Source: Gammaproteobacteria bacterium (GTDB lineage Bacteria > Pseudomonadota > Gammaproteobacteria > CAIRSR01). From it: a stretch of DNA of 45,615 nucleotides. A program made the translations under genes and the position numbers. Location of the stretch: positions 1-45,615 of the forward strand of contig CAUYTY010000133.1 of the NCBI GenBank assembly GCA_963575655.1. Direction: 5' to 3'. The notes beneath the pieces were generated by a model. That model did not search any database. It was given only the letters and a program-made list of their open reading frames with translations, and was not told the DNA's origin. This document shows positions 5 to 45,615 of this stretch, piece by piece. Each line of letters opens with the position of its first letter. Position 1 is the stretch's first letter.

Positions 5-44
5 TAGGTGGCAACTTGGGTTAATTAACTCAAGTTGCCACCTA
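5..44. repeat. Palindromic repeat, family A ends joined head to head
   Basis: A nearly perfect 40-bp palindrome. The half-site AGGTGGCAACTTGGGTTAA (6-24) is followed by its inverse at 25-43 with one mismatch. It consists of two ends of the repeat family that recurs throughout the window (TTAACCCAAGTTGC[TC]ACCTA), abutting at TTAATTAA. This looks like two neighbouring elements joined at a TTAA site, or an element deleted down to its ends. Confidence 0.85.
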
Positions 45-59
45 TGGTTCAATTCAACC

Positions 60-127
60 GTCATTCCACTTGTATGACGGCCTCCAAGACGGTATCTGGA
101 TTCCGGCAATCCCTACCGGAATGACGG
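60..127. repeat. REP-like inverted repeat, family B
   Basis: The segment opens with CGTCATTCC and closes with GGAATGACGG, and holds the inner text TGGATTCCGGCAATCCCTACC. Related copies or half copies occur near 3092-3140, 7213-7257, 21316-21414, 25127-25150 and 42325-42425. This resembles the dispersed 'GTCATTCCGGCAGGGATTGCCGGAATCCAG' type repeats seen in many proteobacteria. It lies between the amidase gene and the window edge. Confidence 0.75.
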
Positions 128-163
128 CGGCCTAGTGGGTTATAGGCAGCAACTCGGATTACG

Positions 164-4076: not shown

Positions 4077-4270
4077 TTATTAGAGTACCTAAATCAAAAT
4101 CTAGAAAGTGGAGGATGGGATGTCTGCTCCGGTTAATCATTGATTTTTATGCTACCGCGATTCAGGTGGGTAGCCAATAACTATTCCGAGGGACTGATCC
4201 AAACCACGAATAGCAAGTTTTCAACTCTCGATCCGACGTGTTGGCTCAGGCGTTTCGAGAGAAGATAATA

Positions 4271-4435
4271 GACATTATCGGAAACCCAAAACCTCACCCC
4301 CCGCCCCCCTCTCCTTAACAGGAGAGGGGGAGATTTTTTGCCTGTTCCGTTCAGGAGTTAAGCATAACAACGGAATAATTCTCCCCCTCTCCTGTTAAGG
4401 AGAGGGGGGCGGGGGGTGAGGTTTCCGATAATGTC
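4271..4435. repeat. Long inverted repeat with pyrimidine-rich arms
   Basis: The left arm (about 4271-4332) begins with gacattatcggaaa and continues ACCTCACCCCCCGCCCCCCT before CTCCTTAACAGGAGAGGGGG. The right arm (about 4380-4435) is its inverse and ends ggggtgaggtttccgataatgtc. The arms are about 55 bp, separated by a loop of about 47 bp. A smaller hairpin is nested within each arm (ccctctcc...ggagaggg). No coding capacity. The ACCTCACCCC motif recurs in the hairpin at 28357-28419. Confidence 0.8.
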
Positions 4436-4481
4436 TAATGGGTGCCGGGTAAAATTATGCGTGGTTACTACATTTAAGGAA

Positions 4482-4612
4482 TAACCCAAGTTGCTACCTA
4501 TGCGGTGAGAAACGAAGAAACCCCTCTCCCCCCGGGAGAGGGGTTGGGGTGAGGGCGCGAATTTGTTGATTCGTCAGCATCACGCCCTCACCCCCAGCCC
4601 CTCTCCCTTGTA
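4482..4612. repeat. Family A element, left part, interrupted by IS481
   Basis: Starts with TAACCCAAGTTGCTACCTA and GCGGTGAGAAACGA, the same left end as the complete element at 39577-39670. It runs through the hairpins cccctctccccccgggagagggg and cgccctcaccccc...ttggggtgagggcg, then stops at the IS481 edge. The likely other half resumes at 7011, after both insertion sequences. No gene is present in 4077-4612. Confidence 0.75.
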
Positions 4613-5861
4613 TAGACCGGGGACATAGGTAACGGGTGTTCGGGGACATAGGTAACGGTTTTTGAGCAGTTATTGTGGGTCGAGAAGGTTGATGGAAGCA
4701 ATCTGATGTTGGCAGAAAAAGACATCCAACAAACCGCCTTGAGTGGTGGGACCTAGGGCAACCGAATGGCCATGGAAAGCCCTACCCACCCTCCACTCCC
4801 GTCCTAGGTAGCTTAGCTCCCCCTGTCCTTGGACCTTGCGCACGATGTCATCGGGAGCATATTCAATCGGTGGCAAATCCTCTAGAAACGGTTTTGTGCT
4901 GGGTCGATACCTGCTGGAGGGAGGGCGCAACGCTAGGGATTCATGAGGGCGTTCCAGGTTATAGAGGTCGCGCCAGGCATCAAAGCATTTTTGCGCCTCG
5001 ATTTGGTCGGAAAACGTGATATGGGCCAAAAGTTCGGCTTTGAGGGTACGGTGAAAGCGTTCGTCCTTCCCCTGGGTTTGCGGATGGTAAGGGCGGCTGT
5101 GGCTGACCCGGATACCCAGCCGCATTAACCAAACTGTTAGGGGTGTATAAGGGGAACCCAACGTATCTCCCCACGGCGAACCGTTGTCCATTGTCATCCG
5201 CCAAGGTAGGCCATGACAGCGAAAGGTTTCCGTTAGGGCCTGTTGAACAGTGGCGGTCTGTTCATTGAGGCAGGCGCGTAAGCAGACGGCATAGCGTGAA
5301 TGGTCGTCCAGCACCGTTAGCGGGTGGCAACGCCCTTCACGCATCGCCACATGGCCCTTGAAATCCATTTGCCACAGATCACTGGGGGCAGGGTGCTCGA
5401 ATCGGCGCCAGGGCGCGTGTTTGGCGCTTTCCTCAGGATTCAAACGCTTGTGGCGACGAAGGATTTCGTTGATCGTACTGTGAGAGGGCAACCCCTCATG
5501 GCCTTTTTCTGTCAGCCAGGCCCGCAACTTGCGGGGTCCCCAAGCGAGATGGAGATCACGTACCGTCAACAGTGCCTCTTCTGTCGCTGCTATCGTGCGC
5601 TGAGGTGAAGTTTTCGGTCGACGTGAACGGTCCACCAAGCCCTCATTGCCCTGTTCTATGAAACGATTCAATAACTTGTATCCAGTTTTCGGACTGATAC
5701 CAAACTGGCGGCACAAGGCACGGATATTTGCACCTTCCTGGCGGGCCGATGCACAAACTCTTTTCGGGACAACATGAGTGACACCTCTTTCCAAGGCATG
5801 AACGCTCTCCGGTGGGATGGACTTTCATGCAGTTTGAAGTGTTACCCATGTCCCCGGTCTA
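4613..5861 (-). mobile_element. IS481-family insertion sequence
   Basis: The inverted ends are TAGACCGGGGACATAGGTAAC at the left (4613-4633) and, read inward from the right end at 5861, TAGACCGGGGACATGGGTAAC. A second partial GGGGACATAGGTAACGG lies at 4638-4654. The element carries one transposase gene on the minus strand. Removing the IS630 at its right edge leaves ...GGTC-TATA-CATCCC against ...TTG-TATA-GACCGG on the left, consistent with a 4-bp TATA target duplication and ends at GACCGG. Exact ends are uncertain by 2 bp. Confidence 0.85.
4670..5794 (-). CDS. IS481-family transposase, probable N-terminal frameshift
   Basis: This is a DDE transposase with an N-terminal helix-turn-helix (EGANIRALCRQFGISPKTGY). 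The rve catalytic core has Asp in LWQMDFKGH, Asp in TMDNGSPWG and Glu in GKDERFHRTLKAE. It ends with the Mu-type C-terminal region typical of IS481. This frame opens with TTG at 5794. The usual family start (MPWKEVSLM...SRKEFV) is instead encoded from ATG 5799 in another frame. The two join if one base is restored near 5745-5755, so the original gene probably lost one nucleotide there. The TTG-started protein would lack only the first residues, so activity cannot be excluded. Confidence 0.9.
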   Translation of the reverse strand: MERGVTHVVPKRVCASARQEGANIRALCRQFGISPKTGYKLLNRFIEQGNEGLVDRSRRPKTSPQRTIAATEEALLTVRDLHLAWGPRKLRAWLTEKGHEGLPSHSTINEILRRHKRLNPEESAKHAPWRRFEHPAPSDLWQMDFKGHVAMREGRCHPLTVLDDHSRYAVCLRACLNEQTATVQQALTETFRCHGLPWRMTMDNGSPWGDTLGSPYTPLTVWLMRLGIRVSHSRPYHPQTQGKDERFHRTLKAELLAHITFSDQIEAQKCFDAWRDLYNLERPHESLALRPPSSRYRPSTKPFLEDLPPIEYAPDDIVRKVQGQGELSYLGREWRVGRAFHGHSVALGPTTQGGLLDVFFCQHQIASINLLDPQ

Positions 5862-7005
5862 CTAACCTGCGCGTTGGTTAGGGGACTCCAGCTAAATAGC
5901 ATATTGGACGGATTCTTCTTTAAAAAGTTCTCTGACTTTCTCTGGCGATTTTTTTAAATCCTCTAAAAGTTGAGTAGCTTTATTTTTTAACTCCTCCACA
6001 TTACGAATAAGGTGACGCGCAATTCCTTGTGTCTTAATATTGCTCCATACTAGCTCGACAGGATTAAGGTGTGGAGAATAGGTGGGAAGAAAGAATATTT
6101 TAACCTTTCCATTTGTCGTCTCCAGATATTCCTTAACTACTTTTGCATGATGGGCAGAATACCCGTCTGTTACAATATAGATGGGGCATGAATTCTCTTG
6201 AGCCAAAATTTTTAGATATTCAACAAACGCACCACCATTGAGCGATGAGGGACCTATTTGGAAATGCATCTTTCCTTCAGAAGTTATCGCAGCGATCATA
6301 TTTATGCGATAACGTCCACCAGTGGAGGGAATTATGGGAGTTAAACCTTCTAGCCCCCAAGTTGTACCCGCGTGATAATCGGTGCGCGCCCCAGCCTCAT
6401 CAAGAAAATAGATTATAGCACCCTCATTACTTGCCAACTCTTTGATTCTAGGAAACTCTTTGTTAATCCAATTATCTACTGAAAATTGGTCCCTCTCTAT
6501 CGCACGATATACTGGCCGTTGTGGAGTTAAATTAATGCGGCGCAAAAAACGGCCCACCGCGGAACGACTCATGTAAATAGAAAATTTCCTCTCTATTAAT
6601 GTCTTTATCATTTCAGTTGTCCATAAGACTGTCGAGAATTCAAAATCCAATGGGGTAAATGCGCACAGCCAGAATACGAGTATTCCTTCTTGCTGTTCAT
6701 TGATGAAGGATTTTCTTCCAGGGACAGGTTTCGCATTTAACGTAGCTAGACCCATCTCTTTTGCCTTCTTCACCCATTCGTACACCTTCGATCGGTGCAT
6801 ACCGAAAATCTCGCCCACCTCCCTAGGAGACATTCCTTTACGTACAGCTTTTACTGCTTGAAGCCTTATATACTCAAGGGTAGAGTGATCGAGAGAACGT
6901 CCATCAGAATTTTTCATAATTTTAGCAATTTCATGTCTTATTTTTTGGTTGGACTAATAATAGATTATTTTTACTTGCTTGTCCCCTAACCAACGCGCAG
7001 GTTAG
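5862..7005 (-). mobile_element. IS630-family insertion sequence, copy 1
   Basis: Perfect 25-bp inverted ends: CTAACCTGCGCGTTGGTTAG plus GGGAC at the left (5862-5886), with its exact inverse at 6981-7005. The element is flanked by TA on both sides (5860-5861 and 7006-7007), the TA duplication expected for IS630/Tc1-mariner elements. It is 1144 bp and appears identical, over the stretches I compared, to the copy at 43269-44412. It landed in the last TA at the edge of the IS481 element. Confidence 0.95.
5892..6917 (-). CDS. IS630-family transposase, copy 1
   Basis: A 341-residue transposase. The N-terminal helix-turn-helix pair includes GMSPREVGEIFGMHRSKVYE and the second HTH lies around FSIYMSRSAVGRFLRRI. 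The DDE_3 catalytic domain has Asp in YFLDEAGARTDYH, Asp in YIVTDGYSAHHAK and Glu in NPVELVWSNIK, all present. The translation is identical to the copy at 43299-44324, which implies very recent transposition or ongoing gene conversion. Its base composition is clearly more A+T-rich than the surrounding genes, suggesting recent acquisition. Confidence 0.96.
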   Translation of the reverse strand: MKNSDGRSLDHSTLEYIRLQAVKAVRKGMSPREVGEIFGMHRSKVYEWVKKAKEMGLATLNAKPVPGRKSFINEQQEGILVFWLCAFTPLDFEFSTVLWTTEMIKTLIERKFSIYMSRSAVGRFLRRINLTPQRPVYRAIERDQFSVDNWINKEFPRIKELASNEGAIIYFLDEAGARTDYHAGTTWGLEGLTPIIPSTGGRYRINMIAAITSEGKMHFQIGPSSLNGGAFVEYLKILAQENSCPIYIVTDGYSAHHAKVVKEYLETTNGKVKIFFLPTYSPHLNPVELVWSNIKTQGIARHLIRNVEELKNKATQLLEDLKKSPEKVRELFKEESVQYAI

Positions 7006-7010
7006 TATAC

Positions 7011-7155
7011 ATCCCGTTGGGAAGGGGAGTGAAGATATTCAGCTTTAGTTGCCAATATCAATGGCTGGCGTTGTTTTCTCCCCCTCCCAGCGGGAGGGGG
7101 TTGGGGGGAGGGTAACCAAGGAATTACTCAATGTAGGTAGTAACTTGGGTTAAAA
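7011..7155. repeat. Family A element, right part (long-core version)
   Basis: Contains gtgaagatattcagc, gccaatatcaatggctggcg, the hairpin ctccccctcccagcgggagggggttggggggag and the end TGTAGGTAGTAACTTGGGTTA. The same arrangement is present complete at 19699-19922. It is the continuation of a repeat whose left side ends at 4612. Confidence 0.75.
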
Positions 7156-15999: not shown

Positions 16000-16090
16000 C
16001 TAGTGTCTGATCGGAAACTGTCCTGATTTTGCAACCCATAGAGTTGCAAAACATGAAAATAGGATTTTCGGTTAGACACTAGGTAGCAAT
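16000..16090. repeat. Family C imperfect inverted repeat
   Basis: CTAGTGTCTGATCGGAAA (16000-16017) is mirrored by TTTTCGGTTAGACACTAG (to 16082), with ttgcaac/gttgcaa inside. The right half, gagttgcaaaacatgaaaat and onward to ggtagcaat, is similar to 33839-33887. It abuts a family A element starting at 16100. Confidence 0.65.
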
Positions 16091-16099
16091 TTTTATTAA

Positions 16100-16190
16100 T
16101 TAACCCAGGTTGCTAGCTATGCGGTGAGAAACAAAAAAGCCCCCCGAGATAGGGGAGAAAAGCGCGCTAGATAGCAACCTAGATCAATTA
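16100..16190. repeat. Family A element, diverged full copy
   Basis: Left end TTAACCCAGGTTGCTAGCTA, then gcggtgagaaacaaaaaagc, a GC-rich core and gagaaaagcgcgctagatag. The right end, tagcaacctagatcaatta, is a degraded inverse. Same layout as 39577-39670, but with more mutations in both ends. It sits between the two chemoreceptor genes. Confidence 0.75.
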
Positions 16191-19385: not shown

Positions 19386-20152
19386 TCCGACATTCTTAGG
19401 GTCAGTTCTTACATCTATGCCCTGTTGTTTTAATTCGAAGTGGGTAGATATTTCGAGGTAAGTTACGCTATCGCGGAGCCCAGCTGCAAAATAAACGGAA
19501 GGAAGGAAGGAAGGAAAGCGCATGGATAAGAAATATAAATCCTGACCCCAAAACTCCTGATTATCATCGCATTACTTCGACACTCTCTGCCGGAACGACA
19601 AACCGATAGTAACGGGGTTATTGATTAACCCAAGTGGAGCCGTTTCCCCCCCCCCCCCTCTCTCAACGTCAAGGGGGAAATTATACTAAAGTCGCTACTT
19701 AACCCAAGTTGCCGCCTACGGTCTCAAGCCATAATTCTTCCCAGGCAAGTAGTTTTCTGGTCGCCCTCCCCCCAACCCCCTCCCGTTGGGAGGGGGAGTG
19801 AAGATATTCAGCTCTAGTGGCCAATATCAATGACTGGCGTTGTTTTCTCCCCCCTCCCAACGGGAGGAGGTTGGGGGGAGGGCAACCAAAGAATTACTCA
19901 ATGTAGGTTGCTAACTTGGGTTACTTACACCTCTGGTTCATACATCCCGAGGGGGAGAGAAGGGAAAAACCTAATAGGTGGCAAAATCTGGATTACTTAA
20001 GAATTCACGGATGCCACCATGCTCAACGCCCCCCCTGATGTGCGAATCTGTCTCGGCGTCTACGCGATTATCACTTGACACCGCGAATTTTTCCGACCCT
20101 TTGTACATCTCCGGTGCGCCGGAACCCAATAATTCCATGCGTGGGTGATTAG
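19386..20152. other. Gene-free repeat-rich interval
   Basis: Contains five tandem GGAA units (19497-19516), a family A-like end around 19624-19640 (gattaacccaagtgg), a run of 13 cytosines (19646-19658), and the complete long-core family A element at 19699-19922. No plausible gene. Confidence 0.7.
19699..19922. repeat. Family A element, long-core version, complete
   Basis: Left end TTAACCCAAGTTGCCGCCTA and right end TAGGTTGCTAACTTGGGTTA. The core holds ccctccccccaaccccctcccgttgggaggggg, then gtgaagatattcagc and ggccaatatcaatgactggcg, then a second inverted hairpin cccctcccaacgggaggagg. The core therefore contains two GC hairpins that are inverses of each other, and can fold into one large cruciform. 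Partial relatives are at 7011-7155 and 21441-21578. Confidence 0.85.
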
Positions 20153-21435: not shown

Positions 21436-21578
21436 CAAGTCGAGTTAACTAACCCAAGTTGCTACTTAGCGCGCTTTTCTCCCCTCTCCCTCCGAGAGGA
21501 GGTTGAGGGAGGACGATCAAAAAACTACTTGTCTGGAAAGAATTATGGCTTGAGACCGTAGGTGGCAACTTGGATTAA
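21436..21578. repeat. Family A elements, tandem ends plus full copy
   Basis: gtagcaagtcgagttaac (about 21432-21449) is an outward-facing family A end joined to the next element's TTAACCC-type left end at about 21446-21470. That element continues gcgcgcttttctcccctctccctccgagagg and ends gaccgtaggtggcaacttgg at about 21578. It combines the left half seen at 28427 and 45560 with the right end seen at 25957, so it looks like a recombinant between element subtypes. Confidence 0.7.
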
Positions 21579-23948: not shown

Positions 23949-25085
23949 ATGAAGAACATCGTCGTCGCAGGAGCCAGCTTTGCAGGGCTGTCGACTATTC
24001 AAGCCCTACGCAAGAATGGTTGTAGCGTACCCATTACCCTGGTGGCGCCACAGCCAGCGATGCTCTACTACCCATCTCTCATCTGGGTACCGACCGGGCT
24101 ACGCAACGAATCTGACATTACCATACCTCTCACTAATTTCTTCCGCCGTTACAACGTGAACTACGTACAGGGGAGCGTTACTGGGCTGGACGCCGGGGTA
24201 CAACGGTTGCGTACTACGGCGGGTGAGATGGAATACGAGCGATTGGTCATAGCCACCGGAGGCCATTACGTAAAGAAATTGCCGGGGATCGAACACGCAT
24301 TTATTCCTTGCGAGGGTTACCGCCCAGTGGCGGCCATGAAGGAGCGATTGGACAGTTTGGAGGAAGGTACCTTGACCTTCGGGTTTGCGGGTAATCCCAA
24401 CGAACCCGCGGCCATGCGGGGGGGACCATTATTCGAATTTCTGTTCGGGATCGATACCCTACTGCGCCGCCAAAAACGTCGTGACCGCTTCGACTTGGTG
24501 TTCTTCACCCCCGCCGCTGAGCCTGGTAAACGCCTAGGCGCGCGCGCCATGGGCGGTCTGATGCGGGAGATGGAACGGCGCGGGATCCGTGGTCACGTTG
24601 GTCACAAACTCAAAGGATTTGCCGCCAACCGAGTAATCACCGAGGGGGGCGATCTCCCAAGTGACCTCATCGTCTTCATTCCCGGAATGGTCGGACCAAA
24701 CTGGGCCGCCCAAAGTGGTCTACCCCTTTCAACGGGCGGTTTCGTCTGCACCGATGGCCACTGTCGGGTACCCGGTTTCGAGGGTAGCGTCTACGTAGCA
24801 GGAGATGCCGGCAGTTTTCCCGGACCAGATTGGATGCCCAAGCAGGCCCATCTAGCCGACCTTCAGGCCCACACCCTGGCGCGCAATCTCATCGGCGACC
24901 TCGCTGGTAAACGCACCGAACACACCTTCCGCGCAGAGCTTATCTGCGTCGTGGATACCCTGGACAACGGTATTTTGGTATTCCGCAATGCGGCCTACAG
25001 CGGTGTATTCAAAAGTTATGCCCTGCATTGGTCAAAACGTCTATTCGAGTGGATGTACCTCAATCAATATCGTCCCAGCAGCTAA
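23949..25085 (+). CDS. FAD-dependent sulfide:quinone oxidoreductase-like protein
   Basis: A 378-residue two-dinucleotide-binding flavoprotein of the Sqr/flavocytochrome c/NDH-2 superfamily. Visible are the N-terminal GASFAGLSTIQAL glycine motif, LVIATGGHYVKKLPG, and GSVYVAGDAGSFPGPDWMPKQAHLADLQA binding FAD. The C-terminal helix (about 350-375) has the aromatic-rich amphipathic pattern that attaches Sqr proteins to the membrane. Cys residues occur in FIPCEGY, FVCTDGHC and LICVVDT. Whether these are the redox-active Cys pair of true Sqr needs alignment. If it is Sqr, it oxidises sulfide to polysulfide and reduces quinone. No other sulfur-oxidation genes adjoin it. Confidence 0.75.
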   Translation: MKNIVVAGASFAGLSTIQALRKNGCSVPITLVAPQPAMLYYPSLIWVPTGLRNESDITIPLTNFFRRYNVNYVQGSVTGLDAGVQRLRTTAGEMEYERLVIATGGHYVKKLPGIEHAFIPCEGYRPVAAMKERLDSLEEGTLTFGFAGNPNEPAAMRGGPLFEFLFGIDTLLRRQKRRDRFDLVFFTPAAEPGKRLGARAMGGLMREMERRGIRGHVGHKLKGFAANRVITEGGDLPSDLIVFIPGMVGPNWAAQSGLPLSTGGFVCTDGHCRVPGFEGSVYVAGDAGSFPGPDWMPKQAHLADLQAHTLARNLIGDLAGKRTEHTFRAELICVVDTLDNGILVFRNAAYSGVFKSYALHWSKRLFEWMYLNQYRPSS

Positions 25086-25126
25086 TCCAAGTTGCCACTT
25101 AACCAATGGCTAGACCGTCACTCCGG

Positions 25127-25808: not shown

Positions 25809-25957
25809 TAACCCAAGTTGCCACCTACTTGCCCCCTCCCCAGCCCTCCCCGTAAACGGGGAGGGAGTAGGCCGCAGACCTCCCCCCGTTTACGGGGAGA
25901 TTGAGGGGGGACGATTGGATGCGATCCCGAGTTTCGAATAGGTGGCAACTTGGGTTA
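25809..25957. repeat. Family A element, full copy with plastid-like hairpin core
   Basis: Left end TAACCCAAGTTGCCACCTA and right end TAGGTGGCAACTTGGGTTA are exact inverses. The core has the hairpin ccctccccgtaaacggggaggg, then ccccgtttacggggag, unlike the cores at 39577 or 19699. So identical ends enclose an unrelated hairpin. Confidence 0.85.
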
Positions 25958-28419: not shown

Positions 28420-28426
28420 TTTAATG

Positions 28427-28519
28427 TAACCCAAGTTGCTACCTTGCGCGCTTTTCTCCCCTCTCCCGGAGGGAGAGGGGCTTTTCGTTTCTCACTGTAT
28501 AGGTAGCAACTTGGACTAA
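28427..28519. repeat. Family A element, full copy, inverted core orientation
   Basis: Left end TAACCCAAGTTGCTACCTTG, then gcgcgcttttctcccctctcccggagggagaggggcttttcgtttctcac, then right end ATAGGTAGCAACTTGGACTA. The core is the reverse complement of that at 39577-39670 inside the same ends, so the element is present in both orientations. Confidence 0.85.
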
Positions 28520-28591
28520 TGTAATACCAGTTATTCGCTAGTAAACAAGCTGTGCGAGAAATATCCACAGGACACATTGCTAACCGACGGT

Positions 28592-31020: not shown

Positions 31021-31202
31021 GATTATGCGCGATGCATATTTCGTGCCAGCAACTCGTTTTTTGGGCCATGACGCTCGCTTAACCAAAGTTGCCAGCGAGT
31101 ACGCCGTCTCTCCTCTCCTTCCAGGAAAGGGGGATCTTTCGTTCTCCTCGTAGGAACGTGGAAACGATATCCAGGAACCGGTAGCGTAGGTTAGGGGGTG
31201 AC

Positions 31203-39576: not shown

Positions 39577-39670
39577 TTAACCCAAGTTGCTACCTACGCG
39601 GTGAGAAACGAAAAAGCCCCTCTCCCCCGGGAGAGGGGAGAAAAGCGCGCTAGGTAGCAACTTGGGTTAA
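39577..39670. repeat. Family A element, best complete copy
   Basis: Perfect 20-bp inverted ends, TTAACCCAAGTTGCTACCTA (39577-39596) and TAGGTAGCAACTTGGGTTAA (39651-39670). They enclose gcggtgagaaacgaaaaagc, a perfect hairpin cccctctcccccgggagagggg, and gagaaaagcgcgc. It is 94 bp in total. The TTAA at each end may be the target duplication. It has no coding capacity, so it would need a transposase in trans if mobile. Confidence 0.92.
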
Positions 39671-43181: not shown

Positions 43182-43268
43182 ATGGAGAATTCGATAATCG
43201 ATCCGGGTACTATCGAGGTTCAGCAAAGTCCCCTCGGACCAGCAACTTCCCGTATTGCTGTGGCGCTA
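43182..43268 (+). pseudogene. modC: 5' end of modC, cut off by IS630
   Basis: ATG 43182 lies 1 bp after the modA stop and opens 29 codons (MENSIIDPGTIE...RIAVAL) that end exactly at the IS630 target TA. When the 1144-bp insertion and one TA are removed, the frame joins TAC CTG CAC at 44415 without a shift. This reconstructs RIAVALYLHFSDFALEVAF, a ModC start. The normal modB between modA and modC is absent. Confidence 0.75.
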
Positions 43269-44412
43269 CTAACCTGCGCGTTGGTTAGGGGACTCCAGCT
43301 AAATAGCATATTGGACGGATTCTTCTTTAAAAAGTTCTCTGACTTTCTCTGGCGATTTTTTTAAATCCTCTAAAAGTTGAGTAGCTTTATTTTTTAACTC
43401 CTCCACATTACGAATAAGGTGACGCGCAATTCCTTGTGTCTTAATATTGCTCCATACTAGCTCGACAGGATTAAGGTGTGGAGAATAGGTGGGAAGAAAG
43501 AATATTTTAACCTTTCCATTTGTCGTCTCCAGATATTCCTTAACTACTTTTGCATGATGGGCAGAATACCCGTCTGTTACAATATAGATGGGGCATGAAT
43601 TCTCTTGAGCCAAAATTTTTAGATATTCAACAAACGCACCACCATTGAGCGATGAGGGACCTATTTGGAAATGCATCTTTCCTTCAGAAGTTATCGCAGC
43701 GATCATATTTATGCGATAACGTCCACCAGTGGAGGGAATTATGGGAGTTAAACCTTCTAGCCCCCAAGTTGTACCCGCGTGATAATCGGTGCGCGCCCCA
43801 GCCTCATCAAGAAAATAGATTATAGCACCCTCATTACTTGCCAACTCTTTGATTCTAGGAAACTCTTTGTTAATCCAATTATCTACTGAAAATTGGTCCC
43901 TCTCTATCGCACGATATACTGGCCGTTGTGGAGTTAAATTAATGCGGCGCAAAAAACGGCCCACCGCGGAACGACTCATGTAAATAGAAAATTTCCTCTC
44001 TATTAATGTCTTTATCATTTCAGTTGTCCATAAGACTGTCGAGAATTCAAAATCCAATGGGGTAAATGCGCACAGCCAGAATACGAGTATTCCTTCTTGC
44101 TGTTCATTGATGAAGGATTTTCTTCCAGGGACAGGTTTCGCATTTAACGTAGCTAGACCCATCTCTTTTGCCTTCTTCACCCATTCGTACACCTTCGATC
44201 GGTGCATACCGAAAATCTCGCCCACCTCCCTAGGAGACATTCCTTTACGTACAGCTTTTACTGCTTGAAGCCTTATATACTCAAGGGTAGAGTGATCGAG
44301 AGAACGTCCATCAGAATTTTTCATAATTTTAGCAATTTCATGTCTTATTTTTTGGTTGGACTAATAATAGATTATTTTTACTTGCTTGTCCCCTAACCAA
44401 CGCGCAGGTTAG
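43269..44412 (-). mobile_element. IS630-family insertion sequence, copy 2
   Basis: The inverted ends and 1144-bp length are identical to copy 1, with TA duplications at 43267-43268 and 44413-44414. It is inserted within modC, antisense to it. The identity of the two copies over the compared stretches shows both are recent. Confidence 0.96.
43299..44324 (-). CDS. IS630-family transposase, copy 2
   Basis: A 341-residue DDE_3 transposase, identical in translation to the copy at 5892-6917. Catalytic Asp, Asp and Glu are in YFLDEAGARTD, YIVTDGYSAH and LNPVELVWSN. The N-terminal helix-turn-helix motif for binding the 25-bp ends is intact. Full-length genes, perfect ends and intact catalytic residues in two copies suggest the element is still able to move. 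Confidence 0.96.
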   Translation of the reverse strand: MKNSDGRSLDHSTLEYIRLQAVKAVRKGMSPREVGEIFGMHRSKVYEWVKKAKEMGLATLNAKPVPGRKSFINEQQEGILVFWLCAFTPLDFEFSTVLWTTEMIKTLIERKFSIYMSRSAVGRFLRRINLTPQRPVYRAIERDQFSVDNWINKEFPRIKELASNEGAIIYFLDEAGARTDYHAGTTWGLEGLTPIIPSTGGRYRINMIAAITSEGKMHFQIGPSSLNGGAFVEYLKILAQENSCPIYIVTDGYSAHHAKVVKEYLETTNGKVKIFFLPTYSPHLNPVELVWSNIKTQGIARHLIRNVEELKNKATQLLEDLKKSPEKVRELFKEESVQYAI

Positions 44413-44414
44413 TA

Positions 44415-45476
44415 TACCTGCACTTTTCTGATTTTGCGCTGGAGGTCGCTTTCACCGCACCTGGACGGGGGGTAACCGCATTGTTTGGGGTTTCGGGTTC
44501 GGGCAAGACCACGGTGTTGCGTGCCATCGCAGGACTGGAGCGAACGCGGCCAGGACGGGTAATTATCAACGGCGAGGTGTGGCAAGACGAGGAGGCAACG
44601 GGAGAAGGTAGGTTTTTACCAACCCACCGCCGTCCCGTGGGAGTTGTGTTTCAGGAAGCGAATCTATTTCCACATCTGACGGTGCGTCGAAATCTAGAAT
44701 ACGGTTTTCACCGTGTACCGATAACCGAGCGGCGAGTGGATTTCTCGGCAGTGGTGGAATGGCTTGGTATTGAGGAATTATTACCACGTTCGCCAATTCG
44801 ACTTTCTGGTGGTGAGCGCCAGCGTGTAGCCATCGCGCGAGCATTACTTACTTCGCCGCGTTTATTGCTGATGGATGAACCACTGTCCGCACTGGATCGA
44901 GCAGCCAAGGCCGAGATTCTTCCCTACCTGGAACGCCTGCCTAGTGAATTATCCATACCAGTGCTCTACGTCAGTCATTCCCCTGATGAGGTAGCGCAAT
45001 TAGCCGACTATTTGGTACTCCTGGAGGCAGGCCGGGTACGGGCACAGGGGCCAGTGGCGGAACTATTCGCCCGCCCCGATCTTCCGCTTGCCCACGACCC
45101 CACCGCCGAGGCTCTGATTCAGGCTGTGGTGGAGTCCCACGATGAGGACTATCACCTCACTTGGCTGCGTTTTCCTGGTGGCAAGATTGCCGTTTCCCGC
45201 CAATTTCACGAATCCGGTACCCCGATGCAGATACGTATTCATGCCCGAGACGTAAGCCTGACCCTGGCTCACTGTGAGGAGACCAGTATCCTCAATATTT
45301 TTCCAGTCACCGTGATTAGACTTTTCGACGATGGTCCCGCTCAAGTCTTGGTTCACTTGGATGCTGCTGGCCAATTACTGCTCGCGCGCATCACCCGTCG
45401 TTCCGCTGTCCTATTGGGGCTGATAGCGGGTAAAACTCTTTATGCTCAGGTTAAAAGCGTGACGTTGATGGATTAG
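44415..45476 (+). pseudogene. modC: Molybdate ABC transporter ATPase ModC, 3' part after IS630
   Basis: The ATPase subunit of ModABC. Walker A GVSGSGKTTVL, Q-loop VVFQEANLFPHL, signature LSGGERQRVAIARALL, Walker B LLLMDEPLSALD and H-loop LYVSHSPDEV are all intact. A C-terminal Mop/TOBE domain (about IRIHARDVSL...TLYAQVKSV) binds molybdate. Translation from within this part could begin only at TTG 44481 or a later codon, losing the first beta strand (LHFSDFALEVAF). With modA wrecked and modB gone it is unlikely to matter. The pseudogene call rests on the insertion rather than on any internal lesion. Confidence 0.88.
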
Positions 45477-45559: not shown

Positions 45560-45615
45560 AAACCCAAGTTGCTACCTAGCGCGCTTTTCTCCCCTCTCCC
45601 TCCGGGAGAGGGGCC
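45560..45615. repeat. Family A element, left part at the window edge
   Basis: AACCCAAGTTGCTACCTAGC, then gcgcttttctcccctctccctccgggagaggggcc, reaching the last base. It has the same left half as 28427-28519 and 21446-21500. It lies 84 bp after the modC stop and may supply its terminator hairpin. Confidence 0.8.

Follow-up and report, generated by a model that had tools for sequence, protein, structure and literature searches.

High-copy repeats with IS982-type ends around unrelated hairpin cores, very probably MITEs, in a gammaproteobacterial genome

The 45,615-bp window, by which we mean the whole stretch of DNA analysed here, contains a series of short repeats with shared inverted ends. The copy at 39580..39667 (minus strand, 88 bp) is a short type A MITE with two perfect ends and a core that is terminator-like on the minus strand; its flanks, TTAGTTA and TAATTAT, show no exact duplication. 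A second short type A MITE of 88 bp (28429..28516, plus strand) carries its core in the opposite orientation, in agreement with the original prediction that cores occur both ways round, and lies between exact 7-bp duplications of TAATGTA (28422-28428 and 28517-28523). The genes flanking this copy are separated by approximately 365 bp here and by approximately 87 bp in a genome of the same family (G002), a comparison of synteny only and not base-exact. A type B MITE of 145 bp at 25811..25955 (plus strand) consists of a double CCCCGTAAACGGGG hairpin flanked by TGACAATA and TAACAATA (8 bp, one mismatch), and a long type C MITE of 220 bp at 19702..19921 (plus strand) has two hairpins around a spacer with GTGAAGATATTCAGC, its right end being shifted by 1 bp. 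The element at 21452..21575 (plus strand, 124 bp) is chimeric, with a type A left arm and a type C right arm joined inside the C-rich hairpin and a 6-bp duplication, TAACTA; a copy of mixed subtype had been predicted at 21446.

Older and incomplete copies accompany these. A decayed type A copy at 16103..16184 (minus strand) adjoins another decayed end (16080-16099) at TTAATTAA, and a decayed type A remnant at 31081..31160 (plus strand; right limit approximate) has a left end with 3 mismatches and a hairpin that is still visible. An old type D copy of 132 bp with a GTCATTCC hairpin (28..159, no strand assigned) adjoins the right end of a further copy (5..21, no strand assigned) that is cut by the contig start, while at 45562..45615 (plus strand) the contig end truncates a type A copy, probably of the long form, leaving its left end. 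At 25082..25101 (plus strand) a single end with 3 mismatches precedes a D-type hairpin. Ends predicted at 4482 and 7155 are both present but do not delimit one element: 4483..4608 is the left part of a long type A copy and 7012..7150 the right part of a long type C copy (both minus strand), and other insertion sequences lie between them. The second hairpin of the A-long copy is interrupted at 4609 by an IS with a TGTATAGACCGGGG end.

Several other mobile elements are found in this neighbourhood. The IS with TGTATAGACCGGGG ends sits inside a MITE hairpin at two places (window 4609 onward and L141:6553-7637); at the first of these it has a nested IS630 element next to it, and the two flanks are halves of different MITE types. 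An IS630-family element encoding a 341-aa transposase has two 100% identical copies in the window (5859-7010 and 43266-44417). A second, unrelated MITE family of approximately 101 bp, TAGACCTTATCGGAAACC...GGTTTCCGATAAGGTCTA (e.g. window 4269-4437 and L132:1533-1633), has 155+155 ends in the same genome, 1 in a genome of the same genus (G001) and 0 in G002; its longer variant in the window (TAGACATT..., 169 bp) has a double CCCCCTCTCC hairpin like that of type A.

All ends that had been predicted in the window were found, within a few bases of the expected positions. Allowing up to 3 mismatches, the 20-bp end matched 17 times in the 45,615 bp, compared with 0 matches in 100 dinucleotide shuffles. 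Copies were then collected genome-wide with the 20-bp end as query, as had been proposed: the genome from which the window derives (4.2 Mb; hereafter the own genome) gave 511 end matches at up to 2 mismatches, the reversed pattern used as a control giving 0. G001 and G002 contained 148 and 140 end matches, respectively; none was found in another genome of the same family, and other families of the class gave 0-1 each. Reading the flanks of complete copies places the borders at ACCCAAGTTGCYACCTA...TAGGTRGCAACTTGGGT, i.e. 17-bp inverted ends, with the element proper starting at ACCC and finishing at GGGT. Rfam gave no match to the window, and a literature search with the end sequence returned unrelated matches only.

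The original prediction further held that ends are sometimes joined back to back, and this is real: TTAATTAA joints are abutting copies with one TAATTA in common (window 22-27). At 5-44 the joint reads ...GGGT-TAATTA-ACTC..., that is, two element ends with a single 6-bp TAATTA between them, and similar abutting pairs occur elsewhere in the own genome (L202:3579-3823 and L216:8084-8326). Insertion of one copy into the TA-N-TA duplication flanking another should produce such pairs.

To describe copies as units, 68 elements shorter than 320 bp were paired in 1.156 Mb of the 4.2-Mb own genome, and all copy statistics rest on that part. The paired MITEs are 60-220 bp long, bounded by inverted repeats and without a transposase gene. 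Clustering and arm typing of these 68 elements confirmed the three predicted core types, A with a CCCCTCTCC hairpin, B with the double CCCCGTAAACGGGG hairpin and C with GTGAAGATATTCAGC, and added a fourth, older core D, present in the window at 28-159 and beside 25082, as well as a few single or rare cores. Type A comprises 28 copies, of which 22 are short (≈89 bp, 10% mean divergence from consensus) and 6 long (≈166 bp, 6%); type C has a short form of 143-145 bp and a long form of 215-220 bp. In both types the long form has two hairpins, inverted relative to each other, on either side of a unique spacer and the short form a single hairpin, which suggests that the short forms arose by deletion between the two hairpins of the long ones. 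Type B has 18 copies of approximately 145 bp and 3% mean divergence from consensus; it is the youngest of the core families, which spread in waves.

Different core families have only the ends in common. Apart from the F and E motifs and the bare type A hairpin, which was near an end in 61 of 75 cases, core-specific sequences are found almost exclusively at distances of up to 170 bp from an end. Folding of the core was clear for type B (z -3.0), modest for type A (z about -2) and absent for the chimera (z -0.4). Among the 68 paired copies, the element at 21452-21575 is the sole A/C recombinant; core exchange probably arises when C-rich hairpins recombine or when the template is switched within them. 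Three further apparent chimeras from arm typing (A-R/B-L) proved on reading to be decayed type A copies.

Exact duplications of 6-8 bp flank 31 of the 68 paired copies, compared with 2.7 when right flanks were shuffled, and allowing one mismatch raises this number to 41. Nearly all have TA at both termini, the pattern TA-N2-4-TA (for example TAATTA, TATTTA, TAATGTA, TAGGTTA and TATCTTTA); the 27 copies without a duplication even at one mismatch are in line with decay or rearrangement. These TA-N-TA duplications are the evidence for insertion of the MITEs themselves. Joined flanks of MITE copies were also compared with the DNA retrieved for the own genome, for G001 and G002 and for other phyla, and no base-exact empty site was found in it: this search returned only abutting copies and weak matches of 65-77%, the nearest genome being only about 75% identical.

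The same duplications bear on the target, for which the original prediction had suggested TTAA. An element of the piggyBac kind, specific for TTAA and duplicating it precisely, would agree with the many ends that read TTAACCC and with copies that abut at TTAATTAA, but the base preceding TAACCC may be A, C, G or T, the duplications measure 6-8 bp (TAATGTA, TAGGTTA, TATCTTTA), many without any TTAA, and the partner transposase described below is of the IS982 type. TTAA at the ends results from the joint between a TA-ended duplication and the ACCC end, and we regard a TTAA-specific element as exceedingly improbable.

A transposase gene with the same ends had been anticipated, and it was found intact in G001, a sister species, and in a broken state in the own genome. 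The G001 element (C329) is intact, 1205 bp long, carries the MITE ends with 1 mismatch each and is flanked by an 8-bp duplication, TAAAATTA. Its 275-aa transposase scores 189 bits against the IS982 model NF033520 (cut-off 130) and contains a Pfam DDE domain (PF13612/PF01609) with aligned D, D and E residues. The partner element has the AC-starting inverted repeats (ACCC) and the variable-length duplications (5-9 bp) of IS982. G001 also contains a 461-bp deletion derivative that retains a 5' part of the transposase (C330, L178), and a MITE inserted into an IS copy at TAGAATA, where the left junction alone matches the intact IS. Contigs of G002 are interrupted at an IS that has these ends, and at their edges the end runs into either the start or the stop of the transposase; 49 transposase matches were obtained, about 45 or more of them C-terminal pieces at contig edges, and 355 kb of this genome yielded no paired MITE. 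The own genome yielded one transposase copy of the matching clade (C250:67339-67800, L127), in which the same end is followed by the transposase start; a copy of the second MITE family described above (TAGACCTTATCGG...) interrupts the gene, and the contig ends there. No intact transposase of this clade was found elsewhere in that genome. Another IS982 type, with four genes there (C51, C122, C188, C195), was rejected as partner, as it has different ends (ACCTGAGTTCGACGTAAG); at C51 (L152) and C122 (L157) it lies at TAGGTA sites, once inside a MITE end.

Together, these data indicate that the repeats are high-copy IS982-type MITEs, with IS982 ends around several unrelated hairpin cores, a reading to which we assign a probability of roughly 93%. 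They thereby support the prediction of a non-autonomous mobile element whose ends are conserved while its hairpin cores are exchanged, one copy being a true recombinant. We infer that an IS982 transposase moved these particular MITEs. In the mechanism we propose, the transposase would recognise the 17-bp ACCCAAGTTGCYACCTA on either side and insert what lies between into AT-rich sites, duplicating 6-8 bp of the form TA-N2-4-TA. As only the ends would matter, any short DNA between two of them could spread, and four main core families (A-D) together with rare ones would have done so in waves in the own genome.

Two other origins were weighed against this MITE reading. The repeats are palindromic, intergenic and present in high copy number, as would be REP-type palindromes moved by RAYT (TnpA-REP, HUH) or spread by gene conversion only, the alternative by which the original prediction was to be refuted. 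This is not what is seen: long inverted ends are common to unrelated cores, a DDE transposase gene bears the same ends, and 6-8 bp duplications are present, which gene conversion does not make at new sites. A REP-type origin is therefore very improbable. The cores might instead be remnants left by internal deletion of different autonomous IS982 elements rather than captured hairpins. Derivatives of this kind do occur, as the 461-bp element of G001 with its 5' transposase part illustrates, but by reading the main cores bear no evident likeness to sub-terminal IS sequence of the own genome, G001 or G002, and we consider an origin of the cores by deletion rather unlikely. Capture of a core was never observed.

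All but one of the 68 paired copies (67/68) are intergenic, in DNA of which a simple ORF rule assigns 81% to coding sequence. Type A copies might have been retained because their hairpin works as a transcription terminator, the family being partly domesticated. In the 27-45.6 kb part of the window that was scanned, no site resembles a terminator more than the type A cores do, and copies are over-represented between convergent genes (16 of 58, against 12% of intergenic bases; p = 7e-4). However, the terminator direction is random with respect to the upstream gene, fitting it in just 16 of 28 cases (p = 0.57) and in 8 of 17 tandem contexts, and the placement is explained by avoidance of coding and promoter regions. 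Partial domestication is thus quite improbable.

A wider survey by exact search with the 19-bp end, for which all figures refer to the matches listed, revealed the same end far beyond this class. The matches listed include Thermus, Calidithermus, Pseudanabaena, Oscillatoria, Poribacteria, Armatimonadetes and Anaerolineales, and also Chlamydiota, Ignavibacteria, Parabeggiatoa, Thiomargarita and others; as about 4 chance matches are estimated for the searched collection, single matches per genome are untrustworthy. Cores differ by lineage, Thermus, Pseudanabaena, Poribacteria and others having identical ends around unrelated cores, and a Pseudanabaena MITE compared with plasmids gave a single partial relative. 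Outside the own genome, 33 of 63 paired elements have exact 5-9 bp duplications, compared with 2.8 by chance. In six Poribacteria loci (L013, L059, L087, L100, L102 and L106), hairpins of same-end MITEs contain nested repeats whose ends are of the ATGAAGATTAA type.

In Thermus, Calidithermus, Rubrobacter and Poribacteria, two such ends flank elements of 0.86-0.95 kb, and the Thermus and Calidithermus proteins score above the NCBIfam IS982 cut-off. Copies on Thermus plasmids have exact 7-8 bp duplications (TAAAATA, TACCCTA, TACGAGTA), and the joined flanks of one IS copy match AP024938 over 250 of 250 bases in one piece, an empty site; precise insertion is demonstrated for the autonomous IS with these ends in Thermus plasmids. 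One Thermus IS982 copy (NZ_LR027520.1 76328-77222, L327) lies on a plasmid of T. thermophilus, where it splits the type I-E CRISPR gene cas5e; in other strains the gene is whole. Transposases with these ends differ down to 34% identity (full-length pairs), and in those further removed the ends have drifted (Rhodothermus ACCCAAGTTGTGACCTA, Sulfurospirillum ACCCAAACTGCTAGTT). Both observations fit the published description of IS982 ends as conserved in each cluster of transposases (PMC7335449).

These results change what is of interest in the family. The novelty of a TTAA target is withdrawn, and in its place stands a partner system of a defined 17-bp end and a defined transposase clade. Three related genomes represent three stages: G002 has many autonomous copies and, in the part sampled, no paired MITE, G001 has one intact copy together with MITEs, and the own genome has many MITEs with one broken transposase. 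The same end around unrelated cores in many phyla amounts to a natural experiment on MITE origin in which only the ends are conserved. A bolder proposal, which we consider improbable, is that in many phyla the IS982 subgroup with ACCCAAGTTGCYACCTA ends has produced new MITEs again and again, each time independently, by taking up hairpins from nearby intergenic DNA between two of its ends. Some of the GC-rich intergenic hairpins that are common in bacteria would then be cargo of one conserved 17-bp end pair and not evolved regulatory elements.

With regard to known systems, IS982 elements are approximately 1 kb long, with AC-starting inverted repeats, a DDE transposase of approximately 290 aa and direct repeats of variable length (PMC7335449). 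The partner IS matches this description in its AC-starting repeats, its length of about 1 kb, its DDE transposase and its variable direct repeats, whereas the window copies contain no transposase. The hupL MITE of the giant sulfur bacterium Candidatus Thiomargarita nelsonii, a high-copy element with 19-bp inverted repeats (PMC4853749), is similar as a high-copy MITE with inverted repeats; it was rejected as the same family, since the T. nelsonii genome has 3 matches to the present end, compared with 260 contigs for the hupL MITE. MITEs of IS982 type are already known from Cardinium cOegib, where MITECca01/02 derive from ISCca4 (IS982 family) and are present in 169 copies of approximately 240 bp, mostly intergenic (PMC9769881). 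Both systems are thus high-copy, mostly intergenic MITEs with IS982-family ends. MITECca01/02, however, retain sequence of the parent IS beside their ends and belong to one lineage, whereas in the window family unrelated hairpin cores have only the 17-bp ends in common and the end is found in many phyla. What is notable about the present family is that one end pair surrounds several unrelated hairpin cores, that one recombinant between them is documented and that the end occurs widely.
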